Shown: piece by piece, positions 9,286 through 15,898 of the stretch | How positions within the stretch are numbered: the stretch's first letter is position 1 | Layout: each line of letters begins with the position of its first letter | NCBI RefSeq assembly: GCF_011047315.1 | Contig: NZ_CP049259.1 | Span: forward strand, 2,709,001-2,773,000 | Direction of reading: 5' to 3' | DNA: 64,000 nucleotides | DNA from: Altererythrobacter sp. BO-6 | GTDB lineage: Bacteria; Pseudomonadota; Alphaproteobacteria; Sphingomonadales; Sphingomonadaceae | The notes under the pieces: generated by a model | The model's input: the letters and a program-made list of their open reading frames with translations, nothing else | Database searches by the model: none | What the model was told of the DNA's origin: nothing | Program-made: the position numbers and the translations under genes

Positions 9286-9990
9286 ATGGCAAAAGGCGTT
9301 TGGTCGATCATTCCCGCACTGTTGCTCGCGGCCTGTGGCGCTGAGGTGCCCGCCGATCAGGCGGCGGAAACCGGTTCGGATACCAATGCCGCAGACATGG
9401 CGACGGTTCCCGTGATGGGGCCAGAGCGCAATATTCTCGCCTTCGGCAACAGCCTGTTCGCGGGTTATGGCGTGGACAAGAGTGACAGCTATCCGGCCAA
9501 ATTGCAGGCCGCGCTGCGTGCGCGCGGCTTGAATGCACAGGTCGCAAACGCAGGGATTTCGGGCGATACCAGCGCAGCGGGTTTGCAGCGGCTCAAATTC
9601 ACGCTCGACGCGCAGGACGAGAAGCCTGACCTGTTCATCCTGGAGCTGGGCGGCAATGATCTGCTGCGCGGGATTTCGCCTGAGCAGACCAAGGCCAATC
9701 TTGCCGCCATGCTCGACGAATTGAAGGCCCGCGGCATACCGGCGCTTATCATGGGGATGCGTGCGCCGCCCAATTACGGGCCGGAATACCAGGCGCAGTT
9801 CGATGCGCTCTATGCCGATCTGGCGAAGCAATATGGCGCCGCACTGATCCCGTTCTGGCTGGAATCGATCTATCAGGACCCCACGCTGTTCCAGTCCGAC
9901 CGGATCCATCCGACCGAAGAGGGGATCGAAGAACTCGTCGCGGCAACGGTGGAGCAAGTGGCCGGAGCGCTGCCGGCAGAGGGCAATTAG
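9286..9990 (+). CDS. tesA: Arylesterase/lysophospholipase TesA-like, lipoprotein form
   Basis: GDSL/SGNH esterase that hydrolyses thioesters, aryl esters or lysophospholipids in the cell envelope. The ATG at 9286 follows an AAGGAG site (9272-9277). The 234-residue product begins with a lipoprotein signal, lipobox LLAAC with Cys17, then a linker. The SGNH blocks are FGNSLFAG (nucleophile Ser56), GDTSAAGLQRL, ELGGNDLLRG (Gly and Asn of the oxyanion hole) and DRIHPTEEG (catalytic Asp and His). E. coli TesA has a cleavable signal peptide and is soluble, so lipid anchoring is a notable difference. It is divergent from ybbA-ybbP, the usual partners, and overlaps recF tail to tail by 4 bases. Confidence 0.92.
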   Translation: MAKGVWSIIPALLLAACGAEVPADQAAETGSDTNAADMATVPVMGPERNILAFGNSLFAGYGVDKSDSYPAKLQAALRARGLNAQVANAGISGDTSAAGLQRLKFTLDAQDEKPDLFILELGGNDLLRGISPEQTKANLAAMLDELKARGIPALIMGMRAPPNYGPEYQAQFDALYADLAKQYGAALIPFWLESIYQDPTLFQSDRIHPTEEGIEELVAATVEQVAGALPAEGN

Positions 9991-11063
9991 AGCCGCTCGA
10001 CCGTCCCGGCGCTGACCCGCCAGACGGCCGCTTCGCCCAGGATGTCCTCGAAGGGCGCAGGTTCTGTGCCCGTCAGCCACACTTGTGCACGGCCAGTGCG
10101 CAGGCGCTCGAACAGCGCGGCGCGGCGCACGGGATCGAGATGCGCGGCGACCTCGTCAAGCAGCATCACGCCGGGGCGCCCCTCGGCAGCGAGCACCGCA
10201 TGGGCCAGCGTCAGGGCGATGAGCATCGCCTTCTGTTCGCCGGTGGAGCAGGATGCGGCGGATTGCCCGCTTCCCGCCATCACCACATCCAGCTCGTCGC
10301 GCTGCGGTCCGGTAAGCGAGCGACCGGCTGCACGGTCACGGCCGCGTTGGCGGGCCAGTTCTAAGCGCAGTTCCTCCCGTGTGGTTGGACCGCCCGGCAA
10401 ATAGGTCAGGATCGGCTTGGCAAAAGGCTGGTCGGGCAGGGCGGTCAGCTCGTCCGCCAGCGCCGTGACCAGTGCCATGCGGCCTTCGGCAACCGCCGCA
10501 CCGTGTTCGGCCACTTGCGCTTCGATCGCATCGAGCCATGTTGCGTCGCGGCTGTCCTCCAGCAATTTGTTGCGTTCGCGCAGCGCCGCTTCAAAGCGCG
10601 AGACATGGCGCGCATGGGCGGGATCGATCGCCAGCGCGAGCCGGTCCATGTAGCGCCGCCGTGCGCCTGCGCTGTCCATGAACAGCCCGTCCATCGCCGG
10701 AGTTAGCCAGCCGATCGCGAGCCATTCGCTCAAGGATTGTGCGCTCGCTTCTGCCCCATTGACCCGCACCAGTCGACGGCCCGGGCGCTCGGGTTCGACG
10801 AAAGTGCCGATCCGCGCGCTTTCATGCCCCTGCTCGATCAGGCTGGCGCCGATCTGGAACCCGCCCCCGCCATGCGGCCCGGGAAGTTCAGGCAGCGCGG
10901 CGCGGCGCAATCCGCGGCCTGGCGCAAGCAGCGACAGCGCTTCCAAGATATTGGTCTTGCCCGCGCCATTCTCGCCCACCAGCAGGTTGAGCTGGCGCGT
11001 CCCCGCCAGCTCGGTCTGGCGATGGTTGCGGAAATGCGAAAGGGCAATGCGATCAAGCGCCAT
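9987..11063 (-). CDS. recF: DNA replication and repair protein RecF
   Basis: SMC-like ATPase that binds gapped DNA and, with RecO and RecR, loads RecA at single-strand gaps. From the ATG at 11063 the protein has 358 residues, starting MALDRIALSHFRNH as in most alphaproteobacterial RecF. Walker A GENGAGKT is at 30-37, a FMDSAGARRRYMDRLAL block follows, the ABC signature region (SCSTGEQKAMLIALTLAHA) comes later, and Walker B with D-loop is MLLDEVAAHLD. Another ATG lies 9 bases upstream at 11072. It is not beside dnaA/dnaN here, which is common in alphaproteobacteria. Confidence 0.96.
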   Translation of the reverse strand: MALDRIALSHFRNHRQTELAGTRQLNLLVGENGAGKTNILEALSLLAPGRGLRRAALPELPGPHGGGGFQIGASLIEQGHESARIGTFVEPERPGRRLVRVNGAEASAQSLSEWLAIGWLTPAMDGLFMDSAGARRRYMDRLALAIDPAHARHVSRFEAALRERNKLLEDSRDATWLDAIEAQVAEHGAAVAEGRMALVTALADELTALPDQPFAKPILTYLPGGPTTREELRLELARQRGRDRAAGRSLTGPQRDELDVVMAGSGQSAASCSTGEQKAMLIALTLAHAVLAAEGRPGVMLLDEVAAHLDPVRRAALFERLRTGRAQVWLTGTEPAPFEDILGEAAVWRVSAGTVERL

Positions 11064-11133
11064 AGGTAGCATGAGCGCTTAGCATTTCGAGGCAGATTGG
11101 CCATCTCCGGACGGATCAAAATCACCGATCCTG

Positions 11134-11158
11134 AATGTTGGTGAAAAATCCCAACATT
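11134..11158. promoter_or_regulatory. Perfect 8-bp inverted repeat, candidate activator (UAS) site
   Basis: AATGTTGG (11134-11141) and CCAACATT (11151-11158) are exact reverse complements separated by a 9-base AT-rich spacer. The centre is about 109 bases upstream of the start expected for the -24/-12 promoter at 11228-11245. That is within the range where bacterial enhancer-binding proteins such as PspF bind. The symmetry is seen directly; the role is inferred. It also lies 71 bases upstream of recF and could serve that gene instead. Confidence 0.5.
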
Positions 11159-11227
11159 TCGGTTTGATGAACGGTGCATTCAGGAAGACGGATCCGAAAA
11201 ACCCCAGAATTCTGCCATTTTCCGAAA

Positions 11228-11245
11228 TTGGCACGCCCTATGCAA
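11228..11245 (+). promoter_or_regulatory. Sigma-54 type -24/-12 promoter of the microprotein-pspC operon
   Basis: The sequence TTGGCACG-CCCT-ATGCAA matches the RpoN consensus TGGCACG-N4-TTGC except for one base in the -12 element. The invariant GG (11230-11231) and GC (11242-11243) have the required 10-base spacing between them. Transcription would start near 11255, giving a leader of about 50 bases before the first microprotein at 11304. Psp operons in gamma-proteobacteria are RpoN/PspF-dependent, so finding this element ahead of pspC is coherent. Confidence 0.7.
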
Positions 11246-11303
11246 AGGGTGTTTTGTCCGGCGAAATGGTTCGCTGGGAAATGTTAAACAGGAGTATGAC
11301 CCC

Positions 11304-11420
11304 ATGTTCTTCAATTCTGATGCTTCGAACAAGCTCTTCGCCGCAGTTGCTTCGCTGGTCCTTTCGGCCGCTGTGATGGCCGCCACGATCGTGCCTGCCA
11401 GCCCCAACCTTTTTGCCTGA
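11304..11420 (+). CDS. 38-residue hydrophobic microprotein (first gene of pspC operon)
   Basis: Short gene not recognised as any named family. The ATG at 11304 has an AGGAG site at 11290-11294. The product has a polar start with the pattern MFFNSDASNKLFAAVAS, then a hydrophobic stretch of about 20 residues (VASLVLSAAVMAATIVPA), and ends PNLFA: a probable single-pass membrane peptide. Its start resembles that of the next gene (MF, N, SD, S, then LFAAV and S in the same order), so the two look like tandem paralogues. Expression should be from the -24/-12 element upstream. Codon use and the good ribosome site support translation; function is unknown. Confidence 0.7.
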   Translation: MFFNSDASNKLFAAVASLVLSAAVMAATIVPASPNLFA

Positions 11421-11458
11421 TCGCAGATCAGCCAAACCTTCAATCAAGGAGTAGTATA

Positions 11459-11581
11459 ATGTTCAACCGTTCGGATATCGGCAGCCGTCTGTTCGCCGCT
11501 GTCTTCTCGTTTGCGGTCACCGGCGTCATTCTCGCCACCGTGGTCGATTACGCCACCCCGGTTACAGGCCTCGTCGCATGA
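11459..11581 (+). CDS. 40-residue hydrophobic microprotein (second gene of pspC operon)
   Basis: Starts at the ATG at 11459 after AAGGAG at 11445-11450, 38 bases downstream of the first microprotein. It reads MFNRSDIGSRLFAAVFS, then a hydrophobic span (FAVTGVILATVVDYA) and a short tail. It is paralogous to the preceding gene over the LFAAV region and is probably a single-pass membrane protein. Its stop codon TGA (11579-11581) overlaps the pspC start ATG (11578-11580) as ATGA, so pspC translation is very likely coupled to it. No named family is recognised. Confidence 0.75.
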   Translation: MFNRSDIGSRLFAAVFSFAVTGVILATVVDYATPVTGLVA

Positions 11582-11793
11582 GCGAGTTTGACCACAAGCC
11601 CGTCGCCAACAGTTCCAGCGGCAACTTCCGCCTCGACAAGGCTGATGGCAAGATTTTCGGCGTCTGCGCCGGGATCGGCAATTACTTCGGGATCGATCCG
11701 CTGATCGTTCGCCTCGGCTTCGTGCTCGGCACGTTGATCGGCTTCGGCAGCTTCATCCTGATCTACCTCGCGATCGCGCTGATCGCGAAATGA
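11578..11793 (+). CDS. pspC: PspC domain stress-response membrane protein
   Basis: A 71-residue PspC-domain protein. After a polar N-terminus (MSEFDHKPVANSSSGNF) comes the PspC signature: RLDKADGKIFGVCAGIGNYFGIDPLIVRLGFVLGTLIGFGSFILIYLAIALIAK, two membrane segments and an FGVCAGIG motif. In enterobacteria PspC with PspB senses inner-membrane stress and relieves PspA inhibition of PspF. Here no pspA, pspB or pspF lies in the window, and the partners by position are two microproteins, so signalling may differ. Translation is coupled to the gene before it by a 4-base overlap. Confidence 0.9.
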   Translation: MSEFDHKPVANSSSGNFRLDKADGKIFGVCAGIGNYFGIDPLIVRLGFVLGTLIGFGSFILIYLAIALIAK

Positions 11794-11820
11794 GAGAGGG
11801 CGGGGGATCTCCGCCCTCTC
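11794..11820. terminator. Strong GC hairpin between convergent pspC and SDR genes
   Basis: A 10-bp perfect stem, GAGAGGGCGG (11794-11803) with CCGCCCTCTC (11811-11820), begins immediately after the pspC stop codon. There is no T-run on either side, so it may act as a 3' stabiliser or weak bidirectional terminator rather than a classical one. Confidence 0.55.
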
Positions 11821-11827
11821 AACCCCT

Positions 11828-12610
11828 TCACATCGCCGAGATGCCGCCGTCGAGCTTGATTTCCGCTCCGGTCATGAAACGGCTTTCGTCGCTGGCGAGG
11901 TAGACCACCGCATTGGCGATATCATTGGGCTCACCCACGAATTTGAGCGGGATCTGCCGTGCCAGCTTATCCAGCAGCACTTGCTTGTCGAGATTGTGGT
12001 GCCGCGCCGTCCCGTCGAGGATCGGCGTATCGACAAAGGTCGGATGCACCGAATTACAACGGATCTGCATATTGTTCTTAGCGCAGTGCAGCGCGATCGA
12101 CTTCGAGAGCATCCACACCGCCGCCTTGGAGGCGTTATAGGCCGGCATGGTGTCGCTAGCGATCAACCCTGCAATCGAACTGATGTTGATGATCGAACCC
12201 GGCGCATGTTCGCGCATCAGCGGCAAGGCCTTCTGGCAGCCGTGAAAAATCGAATCGACATTGACGGAGAAGCAGCGCTTCCAGTCATCGAAGGTGCAGG
12301 TCTCGATATTGCCACCAACACCGATTCCGGCATTGTTGACCAGCACGTTGAGCCCGCCCAGATGCTCGCGCGCGGCATCGACCGCGGCTTCCCATGCAGC
12401 AGGATCGGTCACATCGTGCTGCACCCCGAAAGCGGTGCCTGCGCCCAGATCGGCATTGATCGCCGCTGCGGTCGCTTCGGCGCCTGCACCGTTGATATCG
12501 GTACACAGCACCCGCGCGCCTTCTTCCGCCAGCCGCCGCGAATGCGCCGCGCCCAGGCCTTGCGCCGCGCCGGTAACCAGCGCCAGCTTGCCCGCACATC
12601 TTCCTGCCAT
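11828..12610 (-). CDS. SDR family oxidoreductase (hydroxysteroid dehydrogenase-like)
   Basis: Classical short-chain dehydrogenase/reductase of 260 residues using NAD(P)+. The N-terminal Rossmann motif TGAAQGLG lies at about 14-21, with an acidic residue after beta-2 (CTDINGAG) favouring NAD. NNAG follows near residue 90, then the catalytic Ser (NISSIAG), Tyr and Lys (AYNASK), and PTFVDTP in the C-terminal part. Many close relatives are annotated as 3-alpha/20-beta or 3-beta hydroxysteroid dehydrogenases or cyclopentanol dehydrogenases; the real substrate cannot be read from sequence. It follows the Nudix gene by 4 bases and ends the lemA operon string. Confidence 0.88.
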   Translation of the reverse strand: MAGRCAGKLALVTGAAQGLGAAHSRRLAEEGARVLCTDINGAGAEATAAAINADLGAGTAFGVQHDVTDPAAWEAAVDAAREHLGGLNVLVNNAGIGVGGNIETCTFDDWKRCFSVNVDSIFHGCQKALPLMREHAPGSIINISSIAGLIASDTMPAYNASKAAVWMLSKSIALHCAKNNMQIRCNSVHPTFVDTPILDGTARHHNLDKQVLLDKLARQIPLKFVGEPNDIANAVVYLASDESRFMTGAEIKLDGGISAM

Positions 12611-13872: not shown

Positions 13873-14694
13873 TTACCACCCCCCGGAGGCGCCGCCGCCC
13901 CCGAAACTGCCGCCGCCACCGGAAAAGCCGCCGCCACCGAAGCCACCCCCTCCGCCGCCGCCCCAGTCGTCACCACCGGAGAGCGCGCCGCGCACGATCG
14001 CGCTGCCCACTTCCCACAGGATGATGTCAGTCACGGTGTCGCCGAATTCGCGGCCCTTGCCCCTGTAGCGCCGCTTGCGCCGCCGCCCGCGCAGCATTGG
14101 CAATATGAAAAAGAAGAAAATGATCGCGCCCCAGACGAAAAAACCGACCGGGAAGCCGCTGTCGCGCTCGCGCGCTTCGCTGGCCTGCGCGGCGACCTGC
14201 CGGGCTTCGTCTTCAGGCAGGACCAGCTGGGAAATGATTGCGTCAGTTCCCGCGACAATCCCGCCGGGCATGTCGCCATCGCGAAAGCGCGGCAGGATCG
14301 CGTTCTGGATGATCAGGGCTGACAGCGCATCGGTGAGATAGCCTTCAAGGCCATAGCCCACCTCGATCCGTACCTTGCGGTCATTGGGTGCGACAATTAG
14401 CAGTGCGCCGTCATTGCGCTCTGCATCACCGATGCCCCAATTGCGGCCGAGCTGATAACCGTAATCGGCGATGTCATAGCCCTGCAGGTCCGGCACCGTG
14501 GCCACGACCAGCTGGCGCTGCGATTGCGTTTCCAGCGCTTCAAGCTTCTGGGTCAGCTCGGCTTCGACATCGGCGGGGATGATATCCGCCGCATCGACCA
14601 CGCGCCCGGTCAGCTCCGGAAAGTCCGGCTGCGCCGCAACAGGCGCAGCCAGCAGCGCCGCGAATGCAGCGAAGATCAGCGCCAGTGCGCGCAC
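13873..14694 (-). CDS. YgcG-type TPM domain protein with Gly-rich tail
   Basis: 273 residues. Signal peptide (ALIFAAFAALLAAPVAA, cleaved near residue 21), then a periplasmic TPM domain (FPELTGRVVDAADIIPADVEAELTQKLEALETQSQRQLVVATVPDLQGYDIADYGYQLGRNWGIGDAERNDGALLIVAPNDRKVRIEVGYGLEGYLTDA). One TM follows (FFVWGAIIFFFFILPML), then a basic stretch (RGRRRKRRYRGKG), and finally a Gly/Ser/Phe-rich tail ending GGASGGW. This is the standard YgcG/YqcG architecture found beside LemA. The Gly-rich tail would be cytoplasmic and is likely disordered. It starts 8 bases after the lemA stop. Confidence 0.9.
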   Translation of the reverse strand: MRALALIFAAFAALLAAPVAAQPDFPELTGRVVDAADIIPADVEAELTQKLEALETQSQRQLVVATVPDLQGYDIADYGYQLGRNWGIGDAERNDGALLIVAPNDRKVRIEVGYGLEGYLTDALSALIIQNAILPRFRDGDMPGGIVAGTDAIISQLVLPEDEARQVAAQASEARERDSGFPVGFFVWGAIIFFFFILPMLRGRRRKRRYRGKGREFGDTVTDIILWEVGSAIVRGALSGGDDWGGGGGGGFGGGGFSGGGGSFGGGGASGGW

Positions 14695-14702
14695 TGGCTG
14701 GC

Positions 14703-15311
14703 TCAGTTGCCCGAAGTCATGTCGAGTTCGGGAGCGACTTCGGCACCGGCGCTGACCGCTTCATAGGGCACCATCGGTTCCGCACCATGAATGATGTTCG
14801 CGCCGATGGTGTCTGGGAAGGTGCGGATCGTGGTGTTATACTGACGCACCGCTTCGTTATAATCGCGGATGGCCACGGCAATGCGGTTTTCGGTCCCTTC
14901 CAGCTGGCTTTGCAGCGCCAGGAAATTCTGGTTCGACTGGATCTGCGGATAGGCCTCGAAGCTCGCGAGCAAGCGGCCAAGGCCCTGGCCAAGCTGGGCC
15001 TGCGCGGCCTGGAATTCAGCCATCTTCGCTGGATCGTTCAGGTCATCCGCGCTGATGTTGACGCTGGTTGCGCGGGCGCGCGCTTCGGTCACTTCGGTCA
15101 GGATCGCACGCTCGCTCTCGGCCGCACCCTGCGTCACTTCAGCGAGATTGGGGATCAGGTTTGCGCGGCGCTGGAACTGCGCCTCGACATCGGCCCATTT
15201 GGCCTTGGCGTTTTCTTCGGCCGCGGGGACCGAATTGATCCCGCAGGCGGACAAGCCGAAGGCAAGCCCGGCGACCAGTGCAAAGCGGCGAACAGCAGCA
15301 ACGAAATTCAT
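14703..15311 (-). CDS. lemA: LemA family lipoprotein
   Basis: LemA-family envelope protein of 202 residues. The ATG at 15311 follows GGAAGGGA. The N-terminus is a lipoprotein signal with lipobox LSAC and Cys23. The helical LemA domain follows (AKAKWADVEAQFQRRANLIPNLAEVTQGAAESERAILTEVTEARARA ... LGQGLGRLLASFEAYPQIQSNQNFLALQSQLEGTENRIAVAIRDYNEAVRQYNTTIRTFP). It is first gene of a same-strand string lemA-TPM-TPM-Nudix-SDR with gaps of 0-10 bases. Function in cells is unknown; LemA and TPM proteins nearly always occur together. Confidence 0.93.
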   Translation of the reverse strand: MNFVAAVRRFALVAGLAFGLSACGINSVPAAEENAKAKWADVEAQFQRRANLIPNLAEVTQGAAESERAILTEVTEARARATSVNISADDLNDPAKMAEFQAAQAQLGQGLGRLLASFEAYPQIQSNQNFLALQSQLEGTENRIAVAIRDYNEAVRQYNTTIRTFPDTIGANIIHGAEPMVPYEAVSAGAEVAPELDMTSGN

Positions 15312-15466
15312 CGAAATTCCCTTCCGGCAAGTCACCGCGCGCCTGCGCGGCCATCTGTATTACGAGTATAGGTCACCGCTGTGGAAATTCAAGTGAGCTG
15401 CGGGCTTGGCAAGTGCCTGTCATAATGCAAGATTACGGCTTCTTCCGGGGAGTTGAGGAGGTCTGC

Positions 15467-15898
15467 ATGCTTACGGAATTCAAGGAATTCATTGCCAAGG
15501 GCAATGTGATGGAACTGGCGGTGGCTGTGATCATCGCGGGCGCATTCGGCACGATCGTCACGTCTTTGACAGAGGACGTGATCATGCCGATCGTCGGTTT
15601 CGTGTTCGGCGGCGCCGATTTCTCGAGCTATTTCATCCTGCTCAGCACTCCAGAAGGCTATGAAGGCTCGACCACCGATTACGCTGCGCTCAAGGAAGCG
15701 GGCGCGGCCATGATCGGTTACGGCGCGCTGATCACCACGATCATCAATTTCGTGATCCTGGCGTTCATCATCTTCATGCTGGTGCGCTATGCCAACAAGG
15801 TGACCGCGCAATTCAAGAAGGAAGAAGAGGCAGCAGCAACCGCCGGCCCGAGCGAAATCGACCTGCTGACCGAGATTCGCGACGCGTTGAAAAAGTAG
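15467..15898 (+). CDS. mscL: Large-conductance mechanosensitive channel MscL
   Basis: Homopentameric inner-membrane channel that opens at near-lytic tension to release solutes on hypo-osmotic shock. The ATG at 15467 follows GAGGAGG. The 143-residue product starts MLTEFKEFIAKGNVMELAVAVIIAGAFGTIVTSLTEDVIMPIVGFVFGG (N-terminal amphipathic helix and pore-lining TM1), has a periplasmic loop of about 35 residues, TM2 (LITTIINFVILAFIIFMLVRYANK), and a cytoplasmic helix ending LLTEIRDALKK. All family hallmarks are present. Confidence 0.97.
   Translation: MLTEFKEFIAKGNVMELAVAVIIAGAFGTIVTSLTEDVIMPIVGFVFGGADFSSYFILLSTPEGYEGSTTDYAALKEAGAAMIGYGALITTIINFVILAFIIFMLVRYANKVTAQFKKEEEAAATAGPSEIDLLTEIRDALKK

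Follow-up and report, generated by a model that had tools for sequence, protein, structure and literature searches.

The operon described here is probably a second, unlinked operon of the PspF/sigma-54 phage-shock (Psp) regulon, in which two paralogous microproteins would serve as small membrane-stress effectors, and its most likely nature is that of an unlinked microprotein operon of a new type, belonging to the PspF regulon and widespread in one bacterial family. It lies in the window, i.e., the whole stretch of 64,000 nucleotides that was analysed (C1:2709001-2773000, in a genome of 3.04 Mb on a single contig). The Psp response to membrane stress has long been studied, and debate continues on its effector step. 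Conserved and largely unnamed microproteins encoded behind the same kind of promoter provide new candidate Psp effectors, small enough for direct testing in genera available in culture, Erythrobacter and Qipengyuania among them, and the analysis also supplies a predicted PspF binding element for this family.

Organization of the operon and its promoter

The features of the locus are the following:

9987-11072, divergent, upstream of the operon: recF-like gene (RecF/RecN/SMC Pfam match)
11131-11162, plus strand: upstream activating element, a predicted PspF binding site, CTGAATGTTGGTGAAAAATCCCAACATTTCGG, spanning -98 to -67 relative to the T of TGGCAC
11198-11222, plus strand: second conserved element, in relatives an A-run, a GGCGGAATTCCGCC-like dyad and a T-run, degenerate here (AAAACCCCAGAATTCTGCCATTTTC)
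11229-11243, plus strand: sigma-54 -24/-12 promoter TGGCACGCCCTATGC, from its sequence and its conservation in relatives
11257-11278, plus strand: hairpin with a 9-bp stem and a 4-nt loop, at the expected 5' end of the mRNA (-12.4 kcal/mol, z -2.5 in a 40-nt leader piece)
11304-11420, plus strand: microprotein gene 1, 38 aa, MFFNSDASNKLFAAVASLVLSAAVMAATIVPASPNLFA, predicted single-pass and N-in, an ORF after AGGAG
11459-11581, plus strand: microprotein gene 2, 40 aa, MFNRSDIGSRLFAAVFSFAVTGVILATVVDYATPVTGLVA, paralogue of gene 1, an ORF after AAGGAG
11578-11793, plus strand: short PspC-domain gene, 71 aa, its start codon sharing an ATGA with the stop codon of microgene 2
11828-12610, convergent, downstream of the operon: short-chain dehydrogenase gene

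Genes for a TPM-domain protein, LemA and MscL lie further downstream in the window (13873-15898).

The sigma-54 site reads TGGCACG-CCCT-ATGC and is near-consensus, with the GG at 11230-11231 and the GC at 11242-11243, a distance of 12 bases that fits the -24/-12 consensus. The motif alone is weak evidence, because its looser form (TGGCACRN5TGC) occurs 20 times in the genome and the reversed control 13 times; the stricter TGGCACGN4WTGC is found 8 times in the 3.04 Mb, with 2 occurrences of the reversed pattern. The window promoter is nevertheless secure, given that only 2 of the 20 sites, that of the window and that of pspA, carry the upstream element, and that promoter and microproteins are conserved together in 64 of 67 related loci, so that the near-consensus promoter with exact spacing proposed in a first-pass annotation of this DNA is upheld. 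No sigma-70 promoters or T-run terminators were found in 11060-11860, and no known RNA family matched 10900-12000 at E values of up to 1.

The microproteins are conserved and probably span the membrane once

The microgenes encode real proteins under purifying selection, with a pooled dN/dS of 0.21 over 46 non-overlapping pairs of related microgenes (1.63 out of frame), and the comparison of the window with locus L206 gave dS values of 1.44 and 1.62 and dN values of 0.10 and 0.12. The earlier description of two tandem paralogous genes of 38 and 40 residues with ribosome sites is borne out by the ORFs and by this ratio, and that of a PspC gene coupled by ATGA by the overlap read at 11578 and by a PF04024 score of 61.7 bits (cut-off 25), which identifies a PspC domain.

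The microproteins are predicted to be single-pass, with the N-terminus inside and the C-terminus outside, on the basis of hydropathy and charge. All of the 43 microproteins tested have a 17-residue stretch with a mean hydropathy of at least 1.89, which is followed by K or R in none of them (0/43), nor in any of 30 proteins encoded by the leader frames of pspA (0/30), and the microproteins average 1.2 K/R before it. The AlphaFold2 model, a small one, has a single helix at residues 4-29 (mean pLDDT 77.8). The microprotein collection comprised 42 sequences, 37 of which were taken into one further analysis.

Most microproteins end in a hydrophobic residue followed by alanine, with Ala as the last residue in 110 of 120 sequences and Val in the other 10, and the C-terminal Ala is also found in 53 of the 54 microgenes lying apart from pspC, whose last codon is free of any overlap constraint. 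A database search with the microproteins returned 241 proteins; among the 120 listed, most are nameless, and those that carry a name are mostly a hypothetical protein or recombination protein F, with one enoyl-CoA hydratase. The label of recombination protein F was given to several of them apparently because of the adjacent recF gene.

Some of the microprotein sequences can be read as signal peptides, which raises the unlikely alternative that they are exported precursors, cut by signal peptidase near the AxA of ATAIVPASP, with the release into the periplasm of a 10-20-residue peptide that would act as a stress signal. The N-terminal K/R, the short hydrophobic core without positive charge past it, the A-x-A at a conserved place, the conserved C-terminus, and the PAxAA carried by many pspA leaders would all suit an exported precursor, but the predicted helix spans residues 4-29, and the region of the would-be cut is conserved as AI.PA rather than varied.

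Conservation of the arrangement and its independence from PspC

The search of Sphingomonadales for the order of promoter, microprotein and PspC, suggested in the first-pass annotation, revealed a conserved arrangement. The 30 best PspC loci, which include the window, all have a sigma-54 site and one to three microgenes. Among the 110 loci examined, 95 hold a PspC gene, of which 90 have a sigma-54 site and 80 a microprotein detected by the profile; in 11 of the remaining 15, a sigma-54 site is followed 66-74 nt on by an ATG frame of 35-58 codons, and four (L116, L118, L138 and L140) have neither the promoter nor a microprotein.

In a titled set of 80 loci, which overlaps in part with the 199 genomes of the family analysed below, so that the two sets are not independent, microproteins are present in 66 of the 67 sphingomonad loci, the promoter in 65, and the two together in 64, as detected with a profile built from L021-L050. 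Two microgenes are present in 50 of these loci, one in 14, three in 2, and none in one. The genera represented are Erythrobacter, Qipengyuania, Aurantiacibacter, Croceibacterium, Porphyrobacter and Tsuneonella, among others. The other 13 PspC loci of the set, i.e., 11 non-sphingomonad loci and two from unclassified records (L265 and L269), have no microprotein (0/13), and the promoter motif is present in one of them (L265).

PspC matches were found in 186 of the 199 genomes of the family, and the microprotein profile (E up to 0.01) matched 85 of the 199. In the order, 89 of 296 genomes were positive, all of them members of the same family, in a set for which the share of genomes outside the family is unstated. 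The search of 385 genomes of the class for microproteins outside the family yielded only 4 family genomes and two chance-level matches, one with an internal stop and the other within a 415-codon frame.

Microproteins also occur in 15 loci with no PspC in the stretch examined, 10 of which have a sigma-54 site, some of these loci being duplicate contig ends (L063/L064 and L065/L073 are each duplicate ends of one genome). In two of the 15, L068 and L076, the upstream element is not clearly present at its usual position. In two genomes of one genus (L066 and L067), the orthologous locus, flanked by recF and the dehydrogenase gene, keeps both microgenes and is devoid of the short PspC, and the microproteins are therefore not simply subunits of PspC.

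The leader hairpin and the question of translational control

The hairpin of the window has counterparts in the 85 microprotein leaders compared, which have a mean z of -1.93 and lie below -1 in 69 cases (L038 reaches +1.7). Its sequence is variable and its place nearly fixed, and the four larger register groups contain compensatory base pairs. Given that these groups were chosen by predicted structure, the pairing counts lean towards the hairpin, a bias of which the z-scores are free. The 5' end expected near 11255 would fit a conserved hairpin that starts at 11257, and this structure may protect the 5' end of the mRNA.

A leader hairpin, a microgene placed first in each operon, and an ATGA overlap between the microgene and pspC in 48 of 66 loci would also be expected of small ORFs that act as regulatory leader peptides, setting the translation of pspC (and pspA) through a product that is itself immaterial. 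This is improbable, however, given the dN/dS of 0.21, the presence of one to three microgenes in tandem, preceded by motifs like ribosome sites, and the existence of stand-alone microgene operons without PspC.

The upstream element and probable control by PspF

The element upstream of the promoter belongs to a family with the pattern CCAA-N6-G..GAA..TTCCCAA. The bases common to 85 microprotein promoters and 30 pspA promoters are CCAA at -98 to -95, G at -88, AA at -85/-84 and TTCCCAA at -81 to -75, as obtained by counting the columns back from the T of TGGCAC in a fixed register, with no alignment step. A redundancy filter had reduced the microprotein promoters from 88 to 85, and the 30 pspA promoters were left unfiltered (26 after the same filter). 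An EM motif run on the pspA promoters found the start of the pspF gene instead, and was replaced by the fixed-register comparison.

The log-odds of the two groups of promoters are correlated at 0.685 at offset 0, and the other offsets have a mean of 0.00, a standard deviation of 0.18 and a maximum of 0.51. At the fixed register, 29 of the 30 pspA promoters and 76 of the 85 microprotein promoters score above the 99.9th percentile of shuffles. When the window was left out of the training, the element scored 33.7 bits in the window and 23.2 bits at the pspA promoter of the same genome; none of the other 18 sigma-54-like sites exceeds -8.4 at this register, or 1.2 when shifts of up to 15 nt are permitted.

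When shifts are allowed, 82 of the 85 microprotein promoters, 29 of which trained the matrix, carry the element above the 99th percentile of shuffles. It is located at -97 to -99 in 78 of these 82, displaced upstream by exactly one helical turn (11 nt) in three, and at -77 in one. Among the 47 PspC-linked promoters outside the training set, 13 do not exceed 0 when the register is kept exact; 11 of these pass after a shift of 1 or 11 nt and two (L082 and L135) fail. The second element, just upstream of -24, is formed by columns conserved at -31 to -7 in the 85 promoters and is partly common to the pspA promoters.

The PspF-like activator that the first-pass annotation had recommended seeking is encoded in this genome. 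It lies in a classical locus at about C1:865.6-868.6 kb, with pspF on the minus strand and pspA, pspB and pspC on the plus strand, and scores 480.5 bits with TIGR02974 (cut-off 443.55), a second model, NF008622, giving 387.3 against a cut-off of 529. The element is assigned to PspF because it is identical to that of the pspA promoter. Given this, the window operon is most likely a target of PspF, and such control is well supported by the promoter comparisons.

In the family, 188 of the 199 genomes have a PspF match, of which those of G017 (E 6e-62) and G022 (E 8e-62) barely pass. A PspC match is present in G022 (67% complete), and G082 (66% complete) has PspF with no PspC match. The 11 PspF-negative genomes are also, without exception, negative for matches to PspC and to the microproteins and for sites of the DNA pattern described below.

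There is little likelihood that a sigma-54 activator other than PspF, such as the proteins at C1:191596, 399997 or 792423, drives the operon. The genome has nine Sigma54_activat matches, and the upstream elements of a few relatives are divergent, but the element of the window is identical in sequence and register to that of the promoter that pspF faces, is found at only these two of the 20 sites, and both the microproteins and the pattern sites are absent from every PspF-negative genome.

The classical psp locus and the short PspC

The proteins of the classical locus all pass the cut-offs of the TIGR equivalog models, with 274.7 bits for PspA (cut-off 242.95), 90.2 for PspB (51.7) and 132 for PspC (104), together with PspF as given above; the parallel PRK models for the four proteins score below their cut-offs. 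The microproteins matched no Pfam or NCBIfam family at E values of up to 1, including those of PspB (PF06667/TIGR02976).

The order of two microproteins and PspC recalls pspA-pspB-pspC, and had led to the proposal of an undescribed Psp variant in which the microproteins take the places of PspA and PspB, but with the classical pspF-pspABC locus in the same genome, no PspB match, and microproteins found without PspC, they replace neither protein and the proposal, now extremely improbable, was abandoned.

The short PspC of the window has 71 aa, against 125 aa for the classical PspC of this genome, whose C-terminal part it lacks, and it scores 53.1 bits with the equivalog model TIGR02978, below the cut-off of 104. 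Its AlphaFold2 model is uncertain (mean pLDDT 67.8), with helices at 28-37 and 41-69, and no solved structural relatives were found at E values of up to 0.01; the collection of short PspC proteins (A4) comprised 39 sequences.

In L118:1008-1626, a 62-aa PspC is encoded between pspB and a 126-aa PspC, inside the classical pspA-pspB operon, and L116 has the same two PspC frames. It is plausible that the short PspC arose by duplication, as the arrangement of L118 suggests. Downstream of pspC in L003:6644-8142 are several frames of about 80-108 aa with EIERLR-like ends, the first of which is a sub-threshold PspB match.

Microprotein-sized leaders at other PspF-type promoters

In all 30 of the pspF-pspA loci, the sigma-54 site is followed by a frame of 50-61 aa, mostly of the form MYDRxFFQTKLGQAA...VELA, which ends in Ala in 29 of the 30, and all of these genomes are within the microprotein-positive set. 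The database holds 406 relatives of these pspA leaders, and the names among the 120 listed are, with one exception, hypothetical or uncharacterized protein. The search for pspA leaders outside the family, in 385 genomes of the class, returned 4 positives, each a family genome.

A comparison by hhalign of the window microproteins (type A1) with the pspA leaders (type A2) gave no clear sign of common ancestry, with a probability of 2% and an E value of 0.023. The A1 profile also matched beside pspF in G076 and G186, with E values of 5e-4 and 2e-3.

In all 30 psp operons (L003:4993-5937 and L141-L170), the reading frame of pspA extends upstream without a stop, beyond the point where the leader microprotein ends. 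An ATGA or GTGA is found at the leader stop in 28 of the 30, and most of the 30 have a segment like LGPER...SRLDEEVERLRRSPTPTQ. An internal start preceded by GGAG is also retained in pspA, so that both a long and a short PspA may be produced.

The pattern TTCCCAA-N73-75-TGGCACRN5TGC, which was derived from these same promoters, has 88 sites in 71 of the 199 genomes of the family and none in the reversed control. In the genome of the window it hits only pspA, because the window reads ATCCCAA. From the 88 sites, 30 were taken in listing order and 29 were parsed (L303 was left out); 11 of these precede pspA, 14 pspC and three neither, and these 28 all start with an ATG frame of 28-56 codons, under a rule of 28-90 codons with a ribosome-site-like motif and in counts that stand without a chance control. 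No such frame was seen at the remaining site (L312), which lies next to pspF.

Most of the frames resemble known microproteins. Stand-alone PspF-type promoters occur in G001, G095 and G157 (L305-L307), ahead of genes of 35 codons that differ slightly in type (MTLFSNAQSQ...), and neither pspC nor pspA was found in their vicinity.

As 28 of the 29 promoters found by the pattern, including those of pspA, head a microprotein-sized gene, sphingomonad PspF appears to have microproteins as a general output. It is possible, albeit on balance somewhat doubtful, that its main output is an overlooked class of single-pass microproteins. Most of these would have a hydrophobic-alanine tail in the periplasm, and they would be the first product of nearly every PspF promoter (the pspA operon, the short-pspC operon and the stand-alone genes). 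They would play a membrane-protective or signal-sensing part in the response independently of PspC, and PspA would have an additional form, extended at the N-terminus and coupled to the leader microprotein.

Proposed mechanism

For the window operon as an unlinked part of the PspF regulon, the sequence supports a model in which PspF, encoded beside the classical pspABC genes, would bind at 11131-11162 and drive the sigma-54 polymerase at 11229-11243. The message would start near 11255 with a protective hairpin, and the operon would yield the two paralogous small membrane proteins and, by means of the overlapping start and stop, the short PspC.

The membrane function of the microproteins and their partnership with PspC are inferred from sequence: once inserted with the N-terminus in and the C-terminus out, they may act in the membrane as small stress effectors, which might stabilise the membrane, limit proton leak, or assemble with PspC or PspA. 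The hydrophobic-alanine C-terminus, exposed to the periplasm, could provide a docking or turnover signal.

Comparison with known systems

No description of these microproteins was found in the literature searched, which excluded most subscription papers and bioRxiv preprints, and a term search of the available parts of two Psp surveys (PMC9239133 and PMC11237479) gave no mention of sphingomonad, small protein or microprotein. According to the part of PMC9241875 that was available, all of the Qipengyuania strains studied there have phage shock genes, and PspC appears in a table of PMC5443232, also available in part. In the accessible portion of PMC12719787, the YohP protein of E. coli lowers the membrane potential and thereby induces the Psp response. 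The microproteins resemble YohP, by description, as small membrane proteins tied to the phage-shock response, YohP itself being stress-induced.

Like PspB (PF06667), the microproteins are small membrane proteins encoded beside PspC; unlike it, they have no family match, and a PspB above the cut-off is found in the classical operon. The PspC of the window shares with the classical PspC (TIGR02978) the PF04024 domain and the nature of a small membrane protein, and differs from it in its 71 aa, its missing C-terminal part, and its score of 53.1 bits against a cut-off of 104.

In E. coli, pspG is unlinked to pspABCDE. As far as the available part of PMC2763126 goes, the PspF regulon of this species is made up of pspABCDE and pspG, and PspA keeps PspF inactive until membrane stress releases it. 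The window microproteins gave no Pfam or NCBIfam match that would place them with PspG at E values of up to 1, and have 38-40 aa and one predicted helix.

The organization in sphingomonads is like that of the E. coli regulon, as the same partial source presents it, in having one enhancer-binding activator, sigma-54 promoters, and a separate operon for a small inner-membrane effector. On the other hand, PspG is predicted in that text (PMC2763126) to have two membrane helices, unlike the single-pass microproteins described here, which have 35-48 aa, are often in tandem, and are accompanied by a short PspC.
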